Assembly: GCA_965371325.1 (NCBI GenBank)
Contig: CBDUXZ010000024.1
Span: 1-11,658 of the forward strand
DNA length: 11,658 bases
Origin: CBDUXZ01 sp965371325 [NCBI: uncultured bacterium]
GTDB lineage: Bacteria > JAUYMQ01
Direction: 5' to 3'
Below the pieces are notes generated by a model. It made no database searches. It was given only the letters and a program-made list of their open reading frames with translations, and had not been told where the DNA came from. The first letter of the stretch is position 1; every line of letters starts with the position of its first letter. This document shows, piece by piece, positions 2,844 to 11,658 of the stretch. A program made the translations under genes and the position numbers.

Positions 2844-2918
2844 GGGCGCGTAACTCAGCGGAAGAGTGCCATCCTCACACGGTGGAAGTCGCAGGTTCAA
2901 ATCCTGCCGCGCCCACCA
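2844..2918 (+). tRNA. tRNA-Val (anticodon CAC)
   Basis: A complete cloverleaf can be folded. The acceptor stem pairs GGGCGCG (2844-2850) with CGCGCCC (2908-2914), the D stem is ACTC/GAGT, and the anticodon stem is CCATC/GGTGG around the loop CTCACAC. The anticodon CAC is at 2876-2878. The T arm is GCAGG-TTCAAAT-CCTGC at 2891-2907. The discriminator is A at 2915, and CCA is encoded at 2916-2918. CAC reads GUG (Val), a codon common in this GC-rich sequence. Confidence 0.95.
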
Positions 2919-2931
2919 TTTTTCAGCTCAT

Positions 2932-3008
2932 GGCCCAGTAGCTCAGTTGGATAGAGCGGCAGCCTCCGGAGCTGTAGGTCGCAGGTTCGAATCCTGCCTG
3001 GGTCACCA
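2932..3008 (+). tRNA. tRNA-Arg (anticodon CCG)
   Basis: The acceptor stem pairs GGCCCAG (2932-2938) with CTGGGTC (2998-3004), including one G-U pair. The D stem is GCTC/GAGC and the anticodon stem is GCAGC/GCTGT around the loop CTCCGGA, with anticodon CCG at 2966-2968. The T arm is GCAGG-TTCGAAT-CCTGC at 2981-2997. The discriminator is A at 3005, and CCA is encoded at 3006-3008. It lies 13 nt after tRNA-Val and is probably cotranscribed. CCG reads CGG (Arg). Confidence 0.95.
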
Positions 3009-3012
3009 TTAT

Positions 3013-3057
3013 TAAAAGGGGACGTTGCCCTTTTTAAAAGGGCAACGTCCCCTTTTA
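3013..3057 (+). terminator. near-loopless 22-bp inverted repeat, probable bidirectional terminator of the tRNA unit
   Basis: The left arm 3013-3034 (core GGGGACGTTGCCC flanked by A4 and T4) and the right arm 3036-3057 (core GGGCAACGTCCCC) are perfect reverse complements around a single T at 3035. The hairpin begins 5 nt after the encoded CCA of tRNA-Arg. Its A-run/T-run flanks give the shape of an intrinsic terminator in either direction. It could equally be a REP- or MITE-like mobile palindrome, because one arm recurs 31 nt downstream. Confidence 0.6.
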
Positions 3058-3128
3058 CATTAGGAGATCGTGGGGGCATTCCGTCATAAAAAGGGCAACG
3101 TCCCCTTTTACATGGGGGCATTCCGTCA
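3036..3128. repeat. tandem direct repeats: 25-nt palindrome arm and a 16-nt unit
   Basis: The sequence at 3036-3060 (AAAAGGGCAACGTCCCC followed by TTTTACAT) recurs exactly at 3089-3113. The interleaved unit TGGGGGCATTCCGTCA occurs at 3071-3086 and 3113-3128. The order is therefore arm, spacer, unit, arm, unit, which suggests a local duplication of a composite repeat of about 42 nt, with extra bases (TTAGGAGATCG) in the first copy. The downstream arm can pair with 3013-3034 as an alternative to the terminator hairpin. No transposase gene is visible. Confidence 0.7.
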
Positions 3129-3564
3129 CTCGGCGGACACCGTAAGTTCAACTCAAGCAATGCCGGATCGGACCGATTTCATAAGTAGAAGTGGATAGAT
3201 CTTTTAGGAACGCATGGCGGGACCTGCTGCAAATTGTGCGCATCGGCTGCGAATCAATGAATAACCTGCATGGCGGATACCGCAACAGCGCAGGATCGTT
3301 ACGAAACGAGAATAGGCACGGATCTTGCTCGCAAAAAGGGGTCTACAACGCGTTGATAAAAGGCCCCCCTGGGAGAGGCCGGGGATGGGGTTTCTTCCAC
3401 GGCTCGAATCCCATGGAATGGCCGTCCGGCCTCAGGGTAGCCGAGGGCCGGCATCCAACTCGGTTTCTTTTTCCTCGTGAGGTGGTCTCCCCACGGTTGA
3501 GCAAGGCACGGAGGGGGCTGGCCCGCATGCACGACCGGGACCTATCCGACAAGGATTCGGAACC
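3129..3564. other. intergenic stretch without a supported gene, upstream of the oxidoreductase operon
   Basis: About 436 nt with no open frame that looks like a protein. The first half (to about 3350) is less GC-rich than its surroundings. The segment around 3363-3390 is purine-rich, GGCCCCCCTGGGAGAGGCC-like, and resembles the intergenic repeats that give spurious PHPRPLP-type peptides in many genomes. The promoter of the operon should lie here, but I found no pair of hexamers good enough to call. A short stem CCGAG/CTCGG near 3442-3465 is followed by a pyrimidine-rich run and is at most a weak terminator-like element. Confidence 0.5.
3545..3564 (+). promoter_or_regulatory. ribosome binding site in the loop of a small hairpin before the TTG start of korA
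   Basis: AAGGA at 3551-3555 sits 9 nt before the TTG at 3565. The flanking TCCGA (3545-3549) and TCGGA (3557-3561) are reverse complements and could hold the site in a 7-nt loop. No ATG or GTG precedes the conserved domain in this frame back to the stop at 3478-3480, so the TTG is the best start. Confidence 0.4.
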
Positions 3565-5481
3565 TTGAAGCAAATACCCTCGCTCTCTTGCCCCGACGGT
3601 GATCCTGCCGACGGGGCGCCGCCCGAGCCCTGCCACCAGCGGCTTTCCGAGCACACCATCGAGGTGGTTTCCGACTCCGGAGAAGGCGCGCAGAAGTGCG
3701 GCCAGATCTTCGGGCAGGCCTCCGCACGCATGGGTAACGGCGTCTGGACGGTCGAGATCATCCCGGCCGAGATACAGCCTCCGGCGCGCACCTCGGCCGG
3801 GGGAAGCGGCAACAGAATCCGGATCGGGAGCGCGCCTGTCACGAACTGGGGCGACCAGGCGAACCTTGTGGTCGCCTTCAACGAACAGGTCCTCCTGGGG
3901 CGCCACCGTCTGGACGCGCTGGCCAAAGATGCGATCATCCTGCTGGATAACTGCTGGGCCACACATGACGACGAGATCATCCGTGACCAGTGGCAGCAGG
4001 CCATGAAGGAGCTGGCGGGCCAATCCTACAGGTTGATAGAGGTCCCTATAGAGGAGACGTGCCTCGATCTCATGGAAACGCCTCGCCGCGGCAAGAACAT
4101 GTTCGTCCTGGGCCTGCTGGCCTGGATCTACCAGCGGGACGTCCCGCTGATCCGGGATCTCATCGCGGAGTCCTTCCGCAAAAAATCGGCCGAGGTCGTA
4201 AAGGTCAACCACGCACTGCTGGATCTGGGATATCAGTGGGCGGACGAACATCTGGATATGCGCTTCGAGATCCCGTGCACCAAGCCGGACCGGCCGATGG
4301 TGGTTACCAACGGCAACCAGGCCGTGGCGCTCGGTGCGATCGCGGCCGGGATGGATCTTTGTGCGATGTATCCCATTACACCGGCGACCTCCGTCAGCCA
4401 CTACCTCGGAGATATCTTCGAGGAGTTCGGCGGCATGGTGCACCAGGCCGAAGATGAAATCGCCGCTGCGGGCGTGGCGATCGGCGCGTCCTACGCGGGG
4501 AAGGTCGCCTTCACGGTCACCTCGGGCCCCGGGCTGGCGCTGAAGACTGAATTTATCGGCCTTGCCGTTATGGGCGAGATTCCTCTCGTGGTCGTGGACG
4601 TGCAGCGGGGAGGGCCGAGCACGGGGTTGCCGACGAAGGTGGAGCAGTCCGATCTGCTCGCGGCGCTGTACGCCCAGCCCGGCGACGCGCCGCGTGTGGT
4701 GATCGCGCCCGCCACTATCGAGGAGTGTTTCCACTTCATGATCACCGCGCGCCGAATCGCGGAGACGTTCCGGTGTGTCGTCATCATTCTCTCGGACGCA
4801 AACCTCGCCTCGGGGGTTCAGCCCTATGATCGACCTGAGATCGATCCGCGGTGGATGGCGGCACCGGTGGATCAGAGCCCCGTGCCCCCGGGCACCCGGC
4901 CCTACGATTGGGATCCCAGGACCGGCCTGTCGCGCCGGGTCATACCCGGCCAGCCGGGAGGAATGTTTACCCTCACGGGCCTCGCCCATGACGAGTCGAG
5001 CCAGGTCGCCTACGAACCGGAAATCCACGAACGCAGCTCCGCCATGCGGAGCCGGAAGCTCGCGGTGCTCCAGAGCACGCTGCTGCCGCCGCCGGTCTAC
5101 GGCGACCCGGAAGGGGATCTGCTGATCGTGGGGTGGGGCAGCACCAAGGGCGCTATCGAGGAAGCGGTGGATCGCGCGCGGGCCCAGGAACTTCGGGTCT
5201 CCTCGACCCACGTTACCTTTCTCTCGCCGCTCCAGCCGGGACTGAAAGAAATCTTCGGCCGCTTCGACCGCGTCATGACGGTCGAGATCAACTACAGCGA
5301 CGCGCCCGACGCGCCCTTCATCACGCCGGAGAACCGGCGGATGGGCCAGCTCGCCTGGCTTCTCCGGGCGCATACCCTGGTGGACGTCGACTGCTGGAGC
5401 CGTGTGCCGGGCCAGCCGCTTCAGCCAAGACGGATCCACGAAGCCATACGGACTACTCTGAAAAGGGGGACGAGCGCATGA
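3565..5481 (+). CDS. korA: 2-oxoacid:ferredoxin oxidoreductase, fused gamma-alpha subunit (KorA-type, probably 2-oxoglutarate)
   Basis: A 638-aa subunit of a CoA-dependent 2-oxoacid:ferredoxin oxidoreductase, which interconverts a 2-oxoacid + CoA with acyl-CoA + CO2 and reduced ferredoxin in the cytoplasm. The gamma domain comes first (about 31-215, opening IEVVSDSGEGAQKCGQ). The alpha domain follows (about 244-635), with YPITPAT at 269-275, TSGPG at 319-323 and VQRGGPSTGLPTK at 346-358, the hallmark motifs of KorA. Length and gamma-alpha order match two-subunit KorAB enzymes, including those used in reductive TCA cycles and in oxygen-tolerant bacteria. The start is TTG, with about 28 residues before the first conserved strand. 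The end overlaps korB by 4 nt (ATGA), so translational coupling is likely. A 2-oxoglutarate substrate is inferred from architecture; a 2-oxoisovalerate or pyruvate enzyme cannot be excluded. Confidence 0.9.
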   Translation: MKQIPSLSCPDGDPADGAPPEPCHQRLSEHTIEVVSDSGEGAQKCGQIFGQASARMGNGVWTVEIIPAEIQPPARTSAGGSGNRIRIGSAPVTNWGDQANLVVAFNEQVLLGRHRLDALAKDAIILLDNCWATHDDEIIRDQWQQAMKELAGQSYRLIEVPIEETCLDLMETPRRGKNMFVLGLLAWIYQRDVPLIRDLIAESFRKKSAEVVKVNHALLDLGYQWADEHLDMRFEIPCTKPDRPMVVTNGNQAVALGAIAAGMDLCAMYPITPATSVSHYLGDIFEEFGGMVHQAEDEIAAAGVAIGASYAGKVAFTVTSGPGLALKTEFIGLAVMGEIPLVVVDVQRGGPSTGLPTKVEQSDLLAALYAQPGDAPRVVIAPATIEECFHFMITARRIAETFRCVVIILSDANLASGVQPYDRPEIDPRWMAAPVDQSPVPPGTRPYDWDPRTGLSRRVIPGQPGGMFTLTGLAHDESSQVAYEPEIHERSSAMRSRKLAVLQSTLLPPPVYGDPEGDLLIVGWGSTKGAIEEAVDRARAQELRVSSTHVTFLSPLQPGLKEIFGRFDRVMTVEINYSDAPDAPFITPENRRMGQLAWLLRAHTLVDVDCWSRVPGQPLQPRRIHEAIRTTLKRGTSA

Positions 5482-6431
5482 GGGGCGACAGCTGCTCCCT
5501 CCTCACGGTGGGCGTTGACGAGGAGCGCGAGTACAGCCTGCCGGACTATACGGGCGCCACGCCGCGCTGGTGCGCCGGCTGCGGCGACCACGGTATTCTG
5601 ACATCGGTGGAGCGCCTGCTCGAGGCAGAGCAGCTCCCACCCGAGCGGATCGTCTTCGTGTCGGGCATCGGCTGCTCGAGCCGGCTCCCCCACTACGTGA
5701 AGGCCTACGGGTTCCATGGTATCCACGGCCGGGCGCTGCCGGTTGCGACCGGCATCAAGCTGCACCGTCCCGACCTTAACGTTTTTGCCGTCATGGGCGA
5801 TGGCGACTGCTGCTCGATAGGCACAGCCCACTGGATACACGCCATCCGCTACAACATGGACATGGTGGTGCTGATGCTCGACAACGAGATCTACGGCCTC
5901 ACCAAGAACCAGACCTCACCGACGACGCCCCAGGGGTTCCCGAGCAACACGCAGCCCCGCGGAAGCTATCTCCCCGCCCTGAATCCCATCGAGACGACGC
6001 TCGGCGTGAACAACGCTTCCTTCGTCGCACAGACGGCCGACTGGGCGCCGGCGCATCTCTACGCAGTCATCCAGGCGGCTTACCGGCACCGCGGATTTTC
6101 CTTCGTGAGGATCCTGCAGCGTTGCCCGCACTACTCGACCCCCATTTTCGAGCCGATGATTCGCGATCCTTCGCGGGTGGAACTGCTCGTCCACGATAAC
6201 GGCGTGATCGTGCCCGATCTCGAAGGCATCTACGAGAACCAGCGCCGACACGATCCCTCCAACCTCGACGAGGCCCGCAGGCTCGCCGGGGACGAAGAAA
6301 AAGTGCGCCTGGGTGTCTTCTACCGCAACGAAAGCCTCCCCCGTTATGAGGAGACACGGCACCTGCCGTCGCGTTCGGTCGAGGATCGGATCAGGTTGCT
6401 GAACCAGGAGTTCGACCGCCATGCCGTCTGA
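5478..6431 (+). CDS. korB: 2-oxoacid:ferredoxin oxidoreductase, beta (TPP-binding) subunit (KorB-type)
   Basis: A 317-aa catalytic partner of the upstream gamma-alpha subunit, supplying thiamine diphosphate and one [4Fe-4S] cluster. WCAGCGDHG at residues 31-39 and GIGCSSR at 63-69 are family signatures. The TPP/Mg motif GDGDCCSIG at 107-115 continues into DNEIYGLTKNQ (135-145). Cys32, Cys35, Cys66 and Cys216 (in RCPHY) have the spacing expected for the four cluster ligands in structurally known archaeal 2-oxoacid oxidoreductases, so the electron path looks intact. The ATG at 5478 is preceded by an AGGGGGA site, and the gene overlaps korA by 4 nt. The 3' end overlaps the next gene by 11 nt. 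There is no ferredoxin-like delta domain, as usual for KorAB. Confidence 0.93.
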   Translation: MRGDSCSLLTVGVDEEREYSLPDYTGATPRWCAGCGDHGILTSVERLLEAEQLPPERIVFVSGIGCSSRLPHYVKAYGFHGIHGRALPVATGIKLHRPDLNVFAVMGDGDCCSIGTAHWIHAIRYNMDMVVLMLDNEIYGLTKNQTSPTTPQGFPSNTQPRGSYLPALNPIETTLGVNNASFVAQTADWAPAHLYAVIQAAYRHRGFSFVRILQRCPHYSTPIFEPMIRDPSRVELLVHDNGVIVPDLEGIYENQRRHDPSNLDEARRLAGDEEKVRLGVFYRNESLPRYEETRHLPSRSVEDRIRLLNQEFDRHAV

Positions 6432-7428
6432 AGCCGATCGTCTCGATCTCGTGGGCGAGGCCCTGGGACGCCTCTGGACGGACTATAAGGAAGCGGCCGC
6501 CCTCGGGGCCGACGAAGTGGACGGGCTTCTTCGATCGACGGGAGCCACGGCGGAGGAGAACGGCCGGCCCGCCTTCGCGGCAACGCTGGGTTCACTCGGC
6601 AGCGCGTACTTCGACGTCGACCGTCTCGCACCGCTGTTGGCGGGAGAGGCAGCCCCCGAAGGACAGGCCCTCGAGGCGATGAAAGCCGCGGGAGCCGTGC
6701 TGCGGGAGATCGCCCGCGAGCCGGATCCATGCTCGGTCAATCTCCCCGCGGGCGGAAGCCTCGCAGACGCCGTCGAAGGCGCACTCGCCCGCCTGGGGCG
6801 CGCTTTCGGCGCGGCGCACGTCGTGGCGCTTGCGCGGGCGGGGCGCTACGAGAAAAAAGAGCACCACGATTGGCTCGCCTCCTATCCGTTCTTCCGCTGG
6901 ACGCGGCGGGAGCGCCAACGCGTGCCTCCCCTCGTCGTGACCCTCGTGGGCGCGGACCTGCGGGCGGGTGGCCTGGCTGAGTTTCTCGACGGTAGGATGA
7001 AGCTCGTGCTGCTCGGCCGGGACGACACGGCCCCTCCCGCGCCCCTCGTGCGACTCACCTCCCCCGGGATCTATCTCGCCCAAACCCACGACGGCGCCCA
7101 GCTGAAAAACCTTTCCGCCTGGTCCGGGCCCGGCATCGTGGCGTGGGTGCCTGAAAGCAGCGCGGCCTTCGTACACGATCCCGCTGCGGGCCCGGCTCTC
7201 GGCGCCCGAATTCAGATGCTCTCCGAAGCGAGCGCGCCGCGCCGCGGACTGGGCGGACTCAGCGCCGCGCAACTGGCCGATGAGCTGCGCCAGCTCGAGG
7301 CGCTTGCCTCCGCGACGATGTCCGATGCCGCGCTCGCCGGGAGGTCGAACAAGGACCCTGTCGATCGGCTGGCCGCGTGGATCCTGAGCCAGGCGAACGT
7401 GGCCGACGACGCCGCCAAGAACGAATAA
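6421..7428 (+). CDS. unknown protein of the oxidoreductase operon
   Basis: A 335-aa protein I do not recognise. It has no signal peptide, no membrane segment and only one cysteine (Cys104), so it does not bind a classical Fe-S cluster by itself. Residues 1-140 look mostly helical and are rich in Ala, Glu and Leu. Residues 165-260 alternate hydrophobic strands and turns (VPPLVVTLVGADL, MKLVLLGRDD, PGIYLAQTHDG, GPGIVAWVPES) and suggest an alpha/beta domain. Residues 270-335 are helical again. The GRYEKKEHHDW stretch (141-151) is charged. It starts inside the korB end, after AGGAG at 6406-6410, and ends in TAATG shared with the RnfB-like gene. That tight embedding argues for a role with the enzymes: assembly, a scaffold, or regulation of electron transfer. 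Function is inferred from position only. Confidence 0.85.
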   Translation: MPSEADRLDLVGEALGRLWTDYKEAAALGADEVDGLLRSTGATAEENGRPAFAATLGSLGSAYFDVDRLAPLLAGEAAPEGQALEAMKAAGAVLREIAREPDPCSVNLPAGGSLADAVEGALARLGRAFGAAHVVALARAGRYEKKEHHDWLASYPFFRWTRRERQRVPPLVVTLVGADLRAGGLAEFLDGRMKLVLLGRDDTAPPAPLVRLTSPGIYLAQTHDGAQLKNLSAWSGPGIVAWVPESSAAFVHDPAAGPALGARIQMLSEASAPRRGLGGLSAAQLADELRQLEALASATMSDAALAGRSNKDPVDRLAAWILSQANVADDAAKNE

Positions 7429-8276
7429 TGAACCCGGCCTCCCTCGTGCTATCCGCCGGCATACTGGGCGGCGTGGGGCTGGCGTTCGCGCTCCTGATTG
7501 CGTTTGCCCATCGCCAGTTCCATGTCTGGGAAGATCCCCGCTTCGAGGGCGTGACGCAGCTGCTTCCCGGAAACAACTGCGGCGCCTGCGGTTTTCCCGG
7601 GTGCCGGGGTTTTGCCGAAGAGCTGGTGACGGGGAAGACCAATCCGGCCACCTGCACGGTGATGAGCGCGGAGCAGCGTGAGGACGTCGCCGATTACCTG
7701 GGCGTCGAGGTCGGCACGGCTATTGAGCGGGTGGCGCGCGTGCTGTGCGCCGGCGGCCGGGACGTGGCCGTGCAGCGGGCCGCATACGTAGGCCTCGAAA
7801 CCTGCGCATCGGCGGCCGCGGTCGCTTCGGGAGGGAAGGGGTGCACCTGGGGCTGCGTGGGTCTTGGCGATTGCGCGCGCGTGTGCACCTTCGACGCGAT
7901 TTGGATGAGCGACAACGGTTTGCCGGTGGTGGTGCCAGAGCTGTGTACGGCCTGCGGCGACTGCGTGGAAGCCTGCCCGAAGGATCTTTTCGTCCTCATG
8001 CCGGAGGAGCAGAAGCTGCTCGTGCAGTGCCGGAACCAATTGGAGGGGGAGGCGGCCACCGACCTCTGCCAGGTCGCCTGTAACGCCTGCAAGCGCTGTG
8101 AAGCGGATGCGCCGGGCCTTATCACCATCCGCAACGGCCTCGCGGTGATCGACTACGAGCGGTACGATCTGGCCAGCCCGGGCGCGACGGCCCGCTGCCC
8201 CACGGATTGCCTCGTGTGGGTGGAGGGACAGCAGTTCCGGGAGGGCTCGGAACAACTCAAGAGAGCGGCATCATGA
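7428..8276 (+). CDS. RnfB-like membrane-anchored polyferredoxin
   Basis: A 282-aa protein with the full layout of RnfB, the ferredoxin-interacting subunit of Rnf complexes. There is an N-terminal membrane helix (about 5-27), then a four-cysteine Fe-S domain (Cys51, 54, 59 and 76, in NNCGACGFPGC), then ferredoxin modules. The first pair is intact: Cys139/143/149/153 in CTWGCVGLGDCARVC, and Cys173/176/179/183 in CTACGDCVEACP. The second pair is degenerate. Its first motif has Cys218/221/224 but Ala228 in place of the fourth cysteine; the last motif keeps only CP at 257-258. Three [4Fe-4S] clusters plus the N-terminal one are predicted. It sits between two 2-oxoacid oxidoreductase genes and overlaps both neighbours (TAATG, ATGA), so it probably exchanges electrons with them at the membrane. 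No other rnf gene is in view. Confidence 0.9.
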   Translation: MNPASLVLSAGILGGVGLAFALLIAFAHRQFHVWEDPRFEGVTQLLPGNNCGACGFPGCRGFAEELVTGKTNPATCTVMSAEQREDVADYLGVEVGTAIERVARVLCAGGRDVAVQRAAYVGLETCASAAAVASGGKGCTWGCVGLGDCARVCTFDAIWMSDNGLPVVVPELCTACGDCVEACPKDLFVLMPEEQKLLVQCRNQLEGEAATDLCQVACNACKRCEADAPGLITIRNGLAVIDYERYDLASPGATARCPTDCLVWVEGQQFREGSEQLKRAAS

Positions 8277-11200
8277 AGTTCGGGAGGCAGAAAAACAAGG
8301 GCGCGGAACCGCCGCGCTTTCCGGGTATTCCGGTGGCGCTCGACGGCAGTCAGGCCGTGGTCGAGATGGAGACGGCCGCGAGCGATGCCGCCGGGGCATA
8401 CCCGATCACGCCGGCGACACAGATGGGCGAAGGCTGGGCGGTCGCCGTTGCGCAGGGAAAACTGAACGTCAACGGAAGACGGCTCCTTTTCTTCGAGCCC
8501 GAAGGCGAGCATGCCGCCGCCGCGGTGACGGCCGGCATGAGCATGGTGGGGCTCCGGGCCACGAACTTCTCCAGCGGCCAGGGAATTGCCTACATGCACG
8601 AGTCGCTCTATGCGGCGGTGGGCAAGCGGCTCACATACGTGTTGAACGTGGCCTGCCGGGCGATGACCAAGCAGGCGCTGAACATCCATGCCGGCCATGA
8701 CGACTATCACGCCGTCGACGACACCGGTTTCTTCCAGCTGTTCGCCAAGAACGCGCAGGAAATTGCGGACCTGAACCTTATCTCCCACCGCGTGGCCGAG
8801 CTGTCGCTCAATCCCGGCATCTGCGCGCAGGACGGATTCCTCACGAGCCACGTCGTCGAGTCGGTCATGCTGCCCGAGCCCGAACTCGTCAAGGCGTTCC
8901 TCGGCGATCCCGCAGACACTATCGCGTCGCCCACGCCGGCCCAGAAAATGGTCTTCGGGGAGAGGCGCCGGCGGATTCCCGAAATGTTCGATCTCGACTA
9001 TCCCGCGATGATCGGCGTGGTGCAGAACCAGGACAGCTATGCCCAGGGCGTGGCGGCGCAGCGTCCGTTCTACTTCGATCACATCAGGGAGATCGCCGAC
9101 GGCGCATTCGACGAGTACGCGACACTGACGGGCCGGCGCTACGCGCGGGCCAGCGGGTACCGCCTCGATGACGCCGAATACGTCCTGGTCGGCCAGGGCT
9201 CGATCGTGTGGAACGCCGAGGCGGTCTGCGACTACCTGCGCGAAACCCGGAAGCTCCGCATTGGCGTTCTTAACGTGACGATGTTCCGTCCCTTCCCCTG
9301 CGACCTTATCGCGGCCCTCCTGCGCGGGAAGAAGGCCGTCACGGTGCTGGAGCGGGCGGATCAACCGCTTGCGGCCGACGCACCGCTTCTGCGGGAGATC
9401 CGCGTTGCCCTCGCGAAGGGGGTCGAGAACGGCCGTTCCGGAGAGAATGTGTCCCACGCCGGCGTGCCATCGCTACGTCCGGCGGAAGTGCCTGATTTCT
9501 TCTCCGGTTGCTTCGGGCTCGGCAGCCGCGACGTACAGCCCGGCGAGCTGGTCGCGGCGGTGGAGAACATGCTTTCCGCAGGGCGCCGGCAGCGCCAGTT
9601 CTATCTCGGAATCGACTTCGTGCGCCCGGGCACGCGTCTGCCGAAGCTCGAAATCTGGCAGCAAGAGTTGCTGGCTGCCTACCCGCGTCTGCCGGATCTT
9701 TCCATCCACGCGACTGAACATCTCGATCTCCTGCCGAAGGGCTCACTGGCGATCCGGATCCACTCCGTGGGGGGCTGGGGCGCTATCACGATGGGGAAAA
9801 ACCTCGCCCTTACGGCCTCCGAGCTTCTCGGCCTGCACATTCAGGCCAACCCCAAGTACGGGTCGGAGAAGAAGGGGCAGCCCACCACCTTCTACGCGAC
9901 GCTTGCGCCGGAGCCGATCCGGATCAATGCCGAGCTTCGCCACGTGGACGTCAGCCTCTCGCCCGATCCCAATGTTTTCCGCCACTCGGATCCGATCGCG
10001 GGGCTGGCGGAAGGGGGCGTCTTCGTTCTGCAGAGCGATCAGGAGCCTGGGATATTGTGGGAGAGCCTGCCGGCGGTGACGCAGCGGGAGATCCGGATGC
10101 GGAAGATACGCTTCTTCGCGGTCGACGGATTCTCGATCGCGGCCGCGGAGGCATCTGATGTGGAGCACCGGTACCGGATGCAGGGAGCCGCGTTCATGGG
10201 GGCCTTCTTTCGCACCTCACCGCTGCTCGATCGGGGCGGGCTCGACGAGTCCCGCCTTTTCGAGGAAATCCGCAAGCAGCTCTCGAAGAAGTTCGGACAC
10301 TTGGGGGTGCGGGTGGTGGAGGACAACCTGCGCGTTATTCGCCGCGGCTATGACGAAGTGCGCGAAGTGGACTACGCAGCGCTCACCGACAAGCAGGACG
10401 AGCAGGGCGCACTGCCGGTGATGCCGACGGCGCTCGAAGCCGGCCAGGTGGCAGCGGGCATGCAGAACGCCGGCCGGTTCTGGGAGCAGGTAGGATTTCT
10501 CTACAAGACGGGAGAGGACGGAATTGCCGACCCCTTTGCAGCGATCAGCGCCATTCCCGCCGCGACGAGCACCCTGCGCGACATGACCGACGTACGGTTC
10601 GAGGTTCCGGAGTTCGTGGCCGAGAGCTGTACCGGCTGCGCGAAGTGCTGGGTGCAGTGTCCCGATGCGGCCATCCCGGGCCTTGTGAACAGCGTTGAGG
10701 ATCTTCTCCAGGCCGCCGTGGCCGAGTACTCCAATGGACGGACCTTCGACCGGCTCCGTCCCGTGCTGCGCCCCCTCGCGCGTGAAACGCAGCGCCTGCT
10801 GGCCGGGCCGATGCGCGACATTCCCGAGGCGCTGGGCCAGGCCTACACCGCCGTCGCTGACCGGATGGGAATGGAACCCGAACGCCGCACCGCCACGGAT
10901 GCGGAGTTCGCGGTGATCCGCGCCGCCCTCGCCGAGTTCCCGCTTGCCAAGACCTCGCCATTCTTCGAACTACCGGAGTCGAAGGAGAAGGGGAGCGGGG
11001 GGCTGCTCTCGATCACTATCAACCCCGAGGCCTGCAAGGGGTGCAACATCTGCGTCGAGGTCTGTCCCGACGGCGCGCTGATCCCCGTCAAGCAGAACGA
11101 GGCGATCATCGATCGGCTGAGACGGAACTGGGCCCTCTGGCAACGTTTGCCCGACACCGACGACCGCTACTTGAACGTGCGGGACCTCGAGGAGGGAATT

Positions 11201-11658
11201 GGCGTCCTCAGCTCGCTTCTTCTCAAGAAGGATAACTATCACTCGCTGTTCGGCGGTGACGGGGCCTGTATGGGCTGCGGCGAGAAGACCGCCATCCATC
11301 TTGTCTACTCGGCAGTCAACGCCCTCATGCAGCCGCGCGTCGCAAGTCATCTGGATCGGATTGAAGATCTGATCTCACGCCTGGACCGCAGGGCCCGCGA
11401 ACTTCTCGCGGCCGACGCCGATCTCGAACAGATCGAGAGGGCCGACCCGGACAGGGCATCGGTCCCCCTCGGGCAGGAAAAGCGCGAGGTGGTCGAGCGG
11501 CTGGCCCGGATTCTCCACGACCTGAAGGACCTTCGCTGGCGCTACACCGAGGGCCCGAGCGGCAAGGGGCGCGCAACACTCGCCATTACCAACGCAACCG
11601 GTTGCTCTTCGGTCTGGGGGAGCACCTATCCCTACAACCCTTACCCGTACCCCTGGGT
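8273..11658 (+). CDS. large single-chain pyruvate:ferredoxin oxidoreductase-like enzyme, 3' end beyond window
   Basis: The first 1128 residues of a NifJ/PFOR-type fused 2-oxoacid oxidoreductase. The domain order is canonical. Alpha domain I (about 20-290) has YPITPATQMGE at 43-53 and SSGQG at 100-104. Domain II follows (to about 420), then FGLGSRD and the gamma domain (about 490-720, SVGGWGAITMGKN). A 2x[4Fe-4S] domain has Cys786/789/792/796 and Cys921/924/927/931. The TPP/beta domain starts at ACMGCGEKT (Cys999, Cys1002), with ATGCSS at Cys1111. Thr46 and Arg129 are 83 residues apart, the same as Thr31 and Arg114, which bind pyruvate in the Desulfovibrio africanus enzyme; this supports a pyruvate-like substrate. 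Two insertions, about 79 residues between the cluster motifs and about 84 in the beta domain, make it longer than ordinary PFOR. It overlaps the RnfB-like gene by 4 nt (ATGA). Confidence 0.9.
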   Translation, partial: MKFGRQKNKGAEPPRFPGIPVALDGSQAVVEMETAASDAAGAYPITPATQMGEGWAVAVAQGKLNVNGRRLLFFEPEGEHAAAAVTAGMSMVGLRATNFSSGQGIAYMHESLYAAVGKRLTYVLNVACRAMTKQALNIHAGHDDYHAVDDTGFFQLFAKNAQEIADLNLISHRVAELSLNPGICAQDGFLTSHVVESVMLPEPELVKAFLGDPADTIASPTPAQKMVFGERRRRIPEMFDLDYPAMIGVVQNQDSYAQGVAAQRPFYFDHIREIADGAFDEYATLTGRRYARASGYRLDDAEYVLVGQGSIVWNAEAVCDYLRETRKLRIGVLNVTMFRPFPCDLIAALLRGKKAVTVLERADQPLAADAPLLREIRVALAKGVENGRSGENVSHAGVPSLRPAEVPDFFSGCFGLGSRDVQPGELVAAVENMLSAGRRQRQFYLGIDFVRPGTRLPKLEIWQQELLAAYPRLPDLSIHATEHLDLLPKGSLAIRIHSVGGWGAITMGKNLALTASELLGLHIQANPKYGSEKKGQPTTFYATLAPEPIRINAELRHVDVSLSPDPNVFRHSDPIAGLAEGGVFVLQSDQEPGILWESLPAVTQREIRMRKIRFFAVDGFSIAAAEASDVEHRYRMQGAAFMGAFFRTSPLLDRGGLDESRLFEEIRKQLSKKFGHLGVRVVEDNLRVIRRGYDEVREVDYAALTDKQDEQGALPVMPTALEAGQVAAGMQNAGRFWEQVGFLYKTGEDGIADPFAAISAIPAATSTLRDMTDVRFEVPEFVAESCTGCAKCWVQCPDAAIPGLVNSVEDLLQAAVAEYSNGRTFDRLRPVLRPLARETQRLLAGPMRDIPEALGQAYTAVADRMGMEPERRTATDAEFAVIRAALAEFPLAKTSPFFELPESKEKGSGGLLSITINPEACKGCNICVEVCPDGALIPVKQNEAIIDRLRRNWALWQRLPDTDDRYLNVRDLEEGIGVLSSLLLKKDNYHSLFGGDGACMGCGEKTAIHLVYSAVNALMQPRVASHLDRIEDLISRLDRRARELLAADADLEQIERADPDRASVPLGQEKREVVERLARILHDLKDLRWRYTEGPSGKGRATLAITNATGCSSVWGSTYPYNPYPYPW

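Follow-up and report, generated by a model that had tools for sequence, protein, structure and literature searches.

The Rnf complex (RnfABCDGE) is a Na+/H+-translocating ferredoxin:NAD+ oxidoreductase, and PMC12174285 describes RnfB as its module for electron input. KorAB of the Mycobacterium tuberculosis type is a 2-oxoglutarate:ferredoxin oxidoreductase (KOR) of two subunits, a fused gamma-alpha and a beta subunit, and NifJ-type pyruvate:ferredoxin oxidoreductases (PFORs) are represented by the structures 6cin, 1b0p, and 7plm. In tubeworm symbionts and Thioflavicoccus, the parts of PMC6315080 and PMC11636981 used here describe clusters with a 2-oxoglutarate:ferredoxin oxidoreductase that have rnfABCDGE in or near them; flx-hdr and ATP citrate lyase genes are scattered among their korABCD genes, and a dimeric korAB lies elsewhere with tricarboxylic acid (TCA) cycle genes and is coregulated with a “PFOR-like” gene. 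Here, we analyzed a stretch of 11,658 nucleotides (referred to as the window; positions 1 to 11,658 of contig CBDUXZ010000024.1, assembly GCA_965371325.1) from the uncultured bacterium CBDUXZ01 sp965371325, which contains korA, korB, a gene for an unannotated protein (UNK), rnfB, and a gene for a giant PFOR-like enzyme. In all likelihood, these five genes form the opening half of a ten-gene operon that continues with rnfC-D-G-E-A, and we propose, at a probability of about 0.58, that electrons pass between Rnf and the two enzymes, KOR and PFOR, via a tethered ferredoxin that docks on RnfB, a physical coupling that we infer from the genes.

The operon is a variation on the Rnf and PFOR/KOR systems, not new chemistry. 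All six Rnf subunit families are present, with ion pumping predicted from the genes, but unlike in known rnf loci the giant PFOR separates rnfB from rnfCDGEA, korAB and a pseudo-PFOR subunit precede rnfB, and the enzyme carries a fused ferredoxin. The KorAB pair has the subunit layout of the M. tuberculosis type, from which it differs by a fixed partner (UNK or its longer homologue X) and by its linkage to rnfB. The giant resembles NifJ-type PFOR in its catalytic motifs, its cluster motifs, and the order of its domains but is ∼500 residues longer and carries a tethered C-terminal Fer4_13 ferredoxin. In the open-access literature, preprints aside, we found no description of such a KOR-PFOR-Rnf operon, of the pseudo-subunit, or of the tethered ferredoxin. 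The genes and cluster motifs of the window part of the operon, the latter taken from the cysteine positions in the motif table, are as follows.

3565..5481, + strand: korA, fused gamma-alpha subunit, probably of a 2-oxoglutarate:acceptor oxidoreductase (POR and POR_N Pfam domains; the TTG start is uncertain)
5478..6431, + strand: korB, catalytic beta (thiamine) subunit (TPP_enzyme_C and PFO_beta_C domains)
6421..7428, + strand: UNK, 335 amino acids, degenerate paralogue of the PFOR thiamine domain (domain VI/PorB) and proposed adaptor
7428..8276, + strand: rnfB, membrane-anchored polyferredoxin and Rnf electron input subunit (FeS and Fer4 domains; 21 Cys)
8273..11658, + strand: giant PFOR-like enzyme, first 1,128 residues, running past the window (POR_N, PFOR_II, POR, and Fer4)
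10628..10660, + strand: first ferredoxin-type [4Fe-4S] motif of the giant, CxxCxxCxxxC (Cys 786 to 796)
11033..11065, + strand: second ferredoxin-type [4Fe-4S] motif of the giant (Cys 921 to 931)
11267..11278, + strand: CxxC of the giant (Cys 999 and 1002) at the start of the thiamine domain, which we take from PFOR anatomy to be the proximal cluster site

A previous reading of the window from its letters alone (here, the sequence-only reading) had described five genes overlapping by 1 to 11 nucleotides, with two different 2-oxoacid oxidoreductases on either side of a membrane-anchored iron-sulfur (Fe-S) protein. All five open reading frames (ORFs) were recovered on the + strand, with overlaps of 4, 11, 1, and 4 nucleotides in turn, the first of them set by the korB start at the ATG at 5478, just after an A/G-rich stretch; the family matches agree with the rest of that description. 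KorA scored 535.9 bits against TIGR03710 (cutoff, 482.75) and RnfB 81.2 bits against TIGR01944 (cutoff, 68.7), whereas KorB, with 236.5 bits, fell below the cutoff of 261.9 of TIGR02177, which is still its best family.

The giant, of which 1,128 residues could be scored, reached 313.4 bits against TIGR02176, far below the cutoff of 911.35, and is filed as PFOR-like and not as NifJ. It matched 6cin with a phmmer E value of 2.4e-84, and, like NifJ-type PFOR, it has domains I-II-III-V-VI in this order, together with the thiamine motif and three cluster motifs. AYPITPAT, both ferredoxin-type motifs, CMGCGEK, and TGCSS are all seen in the window; the GDG motif lies past its end and is intact in the closest relative (L001). 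Among the giants from loci with the window's arrangement (type A; 62 rows, two of them partial), AYPITPS/AT was present in 59 and CMGCGEK in 61, and GDG was invariant in 52/52 A2 rows. By its motifs, the giant thus looks catalytically competent, with pyruvate as a putative substrate.

Full-length giants in relatives have ∼1,675 amino acids, compared with ∼1,170 to 1,230 for NifJ-type entries, and end in a Fer4_13 ferredoxin that follows a linker of 48 residues (median) with an Ala-plus-Pro content of 46%, against 18% over the whole protein. This ferredoxin arm was detected by motif in 58/60 giants, the two misses being L006 (variant motif) and L041 (which ends early). A structural model of the last 690 residues shows disorder at 558 to 608 and a confident domain at 610 to 690, with two inner loops also at low confidence. 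The swinging lipoyl domains of pyruvate dehydrogenase (PDH) E2 offer an analogy for such an arm, being small carrier domains on Ala/Pro-rich linkers that are sometimes repeated, as are three ferredoxins in locus L124 (see below). The two are not homologous, and the carrier here is an Fe-S ferredoxin whose cargo is electrons.

To place the window among its relatives, the giant was used as the query over species genomes, which gave 171 relatives, and the best 80 loci were fetched. These are partly redundant, several coming from one genome or being near-identical (L014 and L078; L031 and L078 come from one assembly), and nearly all are metagenome-assembled genomes in which many contigs end early; per-gene counts are given for loci with room, i.e., those judged long enough from our own estimate of the offset. 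The gene order in relatives is korA-korB-UNK-rnfB-giant PFOR-rnfC-D-G-E-A. The first five genes are in place in 61/80 loci, many of the others being short contigs, and all ten in 35/80. Upstream of the giant, KorA was found in 53/53, KorB in 62/62, UNK in 67/68, and RnfB in 73/74 loci with room; downstream of it, rnfC was found in 51/52, rnfD in 45/48, rnfG in 44/47, rnfE in 42/45, rnfA in 42/44, and apbE in 28/39. The arrangement is beyond chance, because KorA, KorB, UNK, and RnfB all precede the giant in 61/80 loci, and the five-gene order expected from the window is thereby deeply conserved.

The identity of the downstream genes was checked with NCBIfam models. In L002, RnfC, D, E, and G scored above the cutoffs (G barely, 102.1 versus 102), with RnfA below its own (211.4 versus 229.3 bits); in L054, RnfC, D, G, and A were named, some with scores below the cutoffs (RnfA, at 237.3, above), and the fifth rnf gene has an Rnf-Nqr domain. 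In the closest relative, L001, the giant is 83% identical to that of the window and its gene runs to the contig end, and another contig of the same genome (L127) begins with a giant tail, followed by rnfC (81% identical to that of L002), rnfD, and rnfG. Because of this contig and of the order in relatives, it is highly probable that the window carries the opening half of this ten-gene operon, which continues past 11658; what lies beyond that position was read directly in the relatives, and for the window itself by inference. Since an rnfCDGEA set without its own rnfB follows the giant in relatives, the window's rnfB is taken to be the subunit that these downstream genes lack.

The sequence-only reading had proposed a link to respiration or ion translocation without a complete Rnf complex, and that part does not hold, as in relatives a full rnf set directly follows the giant. 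An rnf cluster lacking its own rnfB, which the same reading had set against its own proposal, is what was found there (rnfC in 51/52 loci and in L127). What has gained from the deep synteny is the idea of RnfB, lying between two 2-oxoacid oxidoreductases, as their dedicated membrane electron partner, which is now the best reading. Of 44 genomes examined, 42 have an RnfD above the cutoff, among them each of the 23 type A hosts searched, 17 of which have exactly one; for this reason the Rnf of type A hosts is usually the operon's own. L045 has an rnfB in place before the giant and, beside its complete type A cluster, a second rnfB with an rnfC at ∼21.5 to 22.4 kb, 11 to 12 kb past the giant. The giant looked naturally divided into two distant genes in G151, G182, and G207, a reading that was rejected, since the breaks coincide with 100-N scaffold gaps, and the apparent rnf losses in L013 likewise fall at 100-N gaps and are assembly artifacts.

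UNK had been called an unknown protein, and it indeed has no relative in Pfam, NCBIfam, or the PDB sequences; its ancestry has nevertheless become recognizable as a degenerate PFOR thiamine domain. Its AlphaFold model is confident (mean pLDDT, 90.9). Foldseek against the PDB returned nothing at an E value of ≤0.001, the two best rows being PFOR structures (E values of 1.6e-3 and 2.1e-3; TM scores of 0.23 to 0.24) ahead of a next row at 0.98. With VIA-align, the top seven entries were PFORs, all aligned over ∼811 to 1171, i.e., the thiamine domain (Z scores of 7.7 to 8.5, which alone are weak and could reflect a common arrangement according to the tool's note; root mean square deviations of 6.0 to 8.2; 179 to 198 residues), followed by beta subunits of oxalate and pyruvate oxidoreductases. 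Comparison of UNK with the thiamine domain of the giant by hhalign gave a local match with an E value of 1.6e-5 and a probability of 79, and a colinear global match with a probability of 92.

We also ran the UNK profile over the 8,669 ORFs of all 134 fetched loci, several of which overlap, so that the matches are not all independent. Besides 79 strong orthologues, there were 41 matches with E values of <0.01, of which 40 fall in giant or X proteins, 39 of them mapping to about residues 1113 to 1185 of the L002 giant; the 41st is a short ORF at the UNK place in L077. The reversed ORFs of the same set, run as a control, gave no match. The GDG thiamine region does not align as GDG, and no Cys column is conserved above 60% across 66 rows, which rules out UNK as an Fe-S protein. 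Sequence and model comparisons thus identify UNK as a decayed PFOR thiamine-domain paralogue and, as the GDG motif and the conserved cluster cysteines are missing, a pseudo-beta subunit rather than PorB.

Related arrangements show the same parts in other combinations. In type B, found in Gammaproteobacteria (L105, L106, L108, L109, L111, and L125), the order is rnfB-giant-rnfCDGEA, with no korAB within the fetched stretch, and the giants keep all PFOR motifs in 7/7 cases. Type C, found in 6/274 Gammaproteobacteria, reads korA-korB-X-rnfB-pseudogiant and then rnfC-D-G-E-A; it is contiguous in 5/6 (in G659, rnf is on a separate contig). The X protein, of 811 to 849 amino acids, is a longer UNK homologue that occupies the UNK place and matches the C-terminal half of the giant (33% identity and an E value of 1.6e-67 in G031). 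Five pseudogiants were read: all have lost GDG, YSNTGG, and the proximal-cluster cysteines, the pyruvate motif is lost in the four in which that part was read, and both ferredoxin-type CxxCxxCxxxC motifs are kept in all five. It is difficult to account for a PFOR that retains its ferredoxin-type clusters alone unless it serves as a scaffold or an electron path. Pseudogiants lack the C-terminal ferredoxin, which X has instead, so that in 20/20 loci examined the tethered ferredoxin is confined to a single gene. This gene is the giant in 12 loci of types A and B and X in the other 8, which are of type C or related to it (among these, the giant of L126 falls outside the contig, and there is none in L124).

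Most type C loci have FrdB-like, FrdA-like, and NuoF-like genes before korA and sucC between the pseudogiant and rnfC; L129 also has sucD and a malate dehydrogenase gene at the end, and in G728 the Frd/Nuo/suc-type extras are absent from the stretch seen. These extended operons (L107, L113, L120 to L123, and L128 to L133) may represent a TCA arm wired to Rnf. Two genomes, G779 and G728, each hold both an active giant-Rnf of type B (L106 and L125) and a korAB/dead-giant locus of type C (L107 and L123). In L124 (genome G774), at 8137 to 11067, an X homologue beside korAB has three ferredoxins in tandem, with Ala/Pro linkers between them. According to the consulted part of PMC11636981, korAB and the “PFOR-like” gene of Riftia symbionts both fall under sulfide limitation, and the korAB genes described in tubeworm symbionts, Thioflavicoccus, and Riftia could be the type C operon.

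The breadth of the system was estimated from genome searches that scored part of the first-look candidates in many genomes, so that the counts are lower bounds; the phylum search around the closest relative covered one genome. Among 249 genomes of G010's phylum (Gemmatimonadota by title), UNK was found in 49 and RnfC above the cutoff in 54 (46 genomes have both, 3 UNK alone, 8 RnfC alone, and 192 neither). Two of the three genomes with UNK only have partial RnfC matches on the same contig, and in the third the contig ends inside rnfB. Five of the eight with RnfC only were inspected: in G045 and G035, the sole Rnf is a more distant one (RnfC 41 to 43% identical), and G150 and G207 contain parts of the giant-rnf stretch truncated at a contig end or an N gap. 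UNK and RnfC lie 6.6 to 7.2 kb apart on the same strand in 31/33 same-contig pairs, both outliers being interrupted at 100-N gaps. Elsewhere, UNK was found in 8/95 genomes of G005's phylum (Rokubacteria by title) and strongly in 10/199 of G009's phylum (Planctomycetes by title), with 5 more weak matches, and in 1/274 of G031's class (Lysobacterales by title), with 12 further weak matches, most of them inside giant PFORs.

From this gene content, which is firm, we propose that the operon may encode a dedicated 2-oxoacid:NAD+ ion-pumping system in which KorAB and the giant PFOR would be wired to Rnf. Electrons would pass between the Fe-S clusters of the giant and its tethered ferredoxin, the clusters of KorAB would reach this ferredoxin through the pseudo-subunit adaptor (UNK or X), and the ferredoxin would swing onto RnfB, with no need for a diffusing ferredoxin. 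In the oxidative mode, Rnf would hand the electrons to NAD+ and export Na+ or H+; in reverse, NADH and the ion gradient would be spent on reductive carboxylation of acetyl-CoA and succinyl-CoA to pyruvate and 2-oxoglutarate. The fullest version is an Rnf supercomplex in which one swinging ferredoxin arm serves both KOR and PFOR via the pseudo-beta adaptor, the dead PFOR of the related lineage acts as an electron wire from KOR to RnfB, and the whole runs reversibly in oxidase-bearing bacteria, spending the gradient on carboxylating acetyl-CoA and succinyl-CoA. That version is tentative, and we put it somewhat short of even odds.

As for direction, the hosts give mixed signals. In 34 host genomes selected from the 80 loci (23 of which were used in the RnfD search), the haem-copper oxidase family, which includes NO reductases, was above the cutoff in all 34, and the E1 component of 2-oxoglutarate dehydrogenase (OGDH) in 24, three more having long partial matches split by contig ends; OGDH was also found in 15/21 type B, type C, or related genomes. 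A purely oxidative system, which would stand in for PDH and OGDH under anoxic or low-oxygen conditions and gain extra ions per 2-oxoacid, would use the best-known, forward Rnf reaction, and it would suit the 7/34 hosts without a full or large partial OGDH E1, among them G001, the window's closest relative. The OGDH and oxidase counts just given speak against it, as does the gammaproteobacterial operon, whose FrdAB-like, SucCD, and malate dehydrogenase genes (L129) make up much of a reductive arm from oxaloacetate to 2-oxoglutarate; as read from sequence, this set would suit the reductive arm, yet it runs both ways. We hold the oxidative-only system to be a doubtful but live possibility and lean slightly toward reductive or bidirectional use. 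KOR as a plain OGDH replacement was rejected as a general rule, since OGDH E1 is above the cutoff in 24/34 hosts. Nor is an ATP-citrate-lyase reductive TCA cycle general: PF16114 was above the cutoff in 3/34 (58, 32, and 29 bits), in a search that also gave no match in 14 control genomes and was thus without a positive control.

The case for a coupled system has to be set against simpler ones and against several observations that count against it. The support is genomic, and cotranscription is no proof of contact; the giant is far under the NifJ equivalog cutoff, so its substrate may not be pyruvate; and hosts usually retain OGDH, leaving little evident need for the operon's system. The fold link between UNK and PFOR is remote (Foldseek E value of 1.6e-3; TM score of 0.23), and a search of PDB sequences with the UNK profile missed PFOR, giving just a chance match with an E value of 0.43. 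Two loci are also exceptions to the order: in L043, counted among the 51, rnfC appears only at +12.7 kb, and L049 (Dehalococcoidia by title) has korB, UNK, and the giant with no rnfB, no rnf genes, and no N gap within 10.9 kb. An ordinary metabolic operon, with soluble KOR and PFOR working on free ferredoxin that Rnf reoxidizes or reduces and with clustering for coregulation, would need no contact between the proteins, and it is textbook knowledge for anaerobes that 2-oxoacid oxidation linked to ferredoxin is followed by Rnf (PMC12174285 and PMC9588780). Such an operon does not explain why rnfB stands apart from rnfCDGEA, between KOR and PFOR, in 61/80 loci, why the ferredoxin is fused on a tether, or why a decayed thiamine domain and a PFOR without an active site but with two ferredoxin-type clusters were retained, and we consider it unlikely. 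UNK could instead be an assembly factor or regulator of KOR, as its lack of conserved cysteines means that it carries no cluster and its divergence is fast (31 to 53% identity to the window protein in 64/65 aligned homologues and 70% in the remaining one), but its homologue X bears the tethered ferredoxin in 8/8 type C/D loci, which places the family in the electron path and makes this role rather improbable. Least probable by far is the original model of RnfB alone as the membrane acceptor of both enzymes, passing electrons to the quinone pool without Rnf. The 5 kb between rnfB and the other rnf genes speaks for it, and at one homologous locus, L124, G774 (Gammaproteobacteria) has korAB and X and no rnfD match anywhere in the genome searched; in relatives, it was rejected, with rnfC-D-G-E-A following the giant and RnfD above the cutoff in 42/44 genomes.

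The rest of the window precedes the five-gene set. An AMP-binding acyl-CoA ligase gene cut by the left window edge (3 to 1142, − strand) is followed by an Nramp-family transporter gene (1241 to 2755, + strand), neither being seen as part of the operon, and by tRNA genes for Val(cac) and Arg(ccg) at 2844 to 3008, directly upstream of the operon; an opposite-strand ORF at 2897 to 3160 overlaps tRNA-Arg and is spurious. Beside the tRNA genes, a perfect palindromic repeat of 22 to 24 nucleotides lies at 3013 to 3113 (third copy, AAAAGGGCAACGTCCCCTTTT), with no copy in any of the 134 fetched loci.

If the proposed coupling is true, central carbon enzymes of bacteria with respiratory oxidases would have a fixed connection to a primary ion pump, which would be a new way for central metabolism to be coupled to the energy of the membrane. 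In such bacteria, low-potential ferredoxin chemistry is considered difficult to protect, and the tethered ferredoxin would hold low-potential electrons inside the complex, away from oxygen. Two questions become testable, namely, how Rnf receives its electrons from one particular enzyme and whether oxidase-bearing bacteria put the ion gradient to use for reductive carboxylation in the absence of an ATP-citrate-lyase cycle. The analysis also gives an ancestry and a proposed role to an unannotated protein family found, by record titles, in Gemmatimonadota, Planctomycetota, Rokubacteria, and others.

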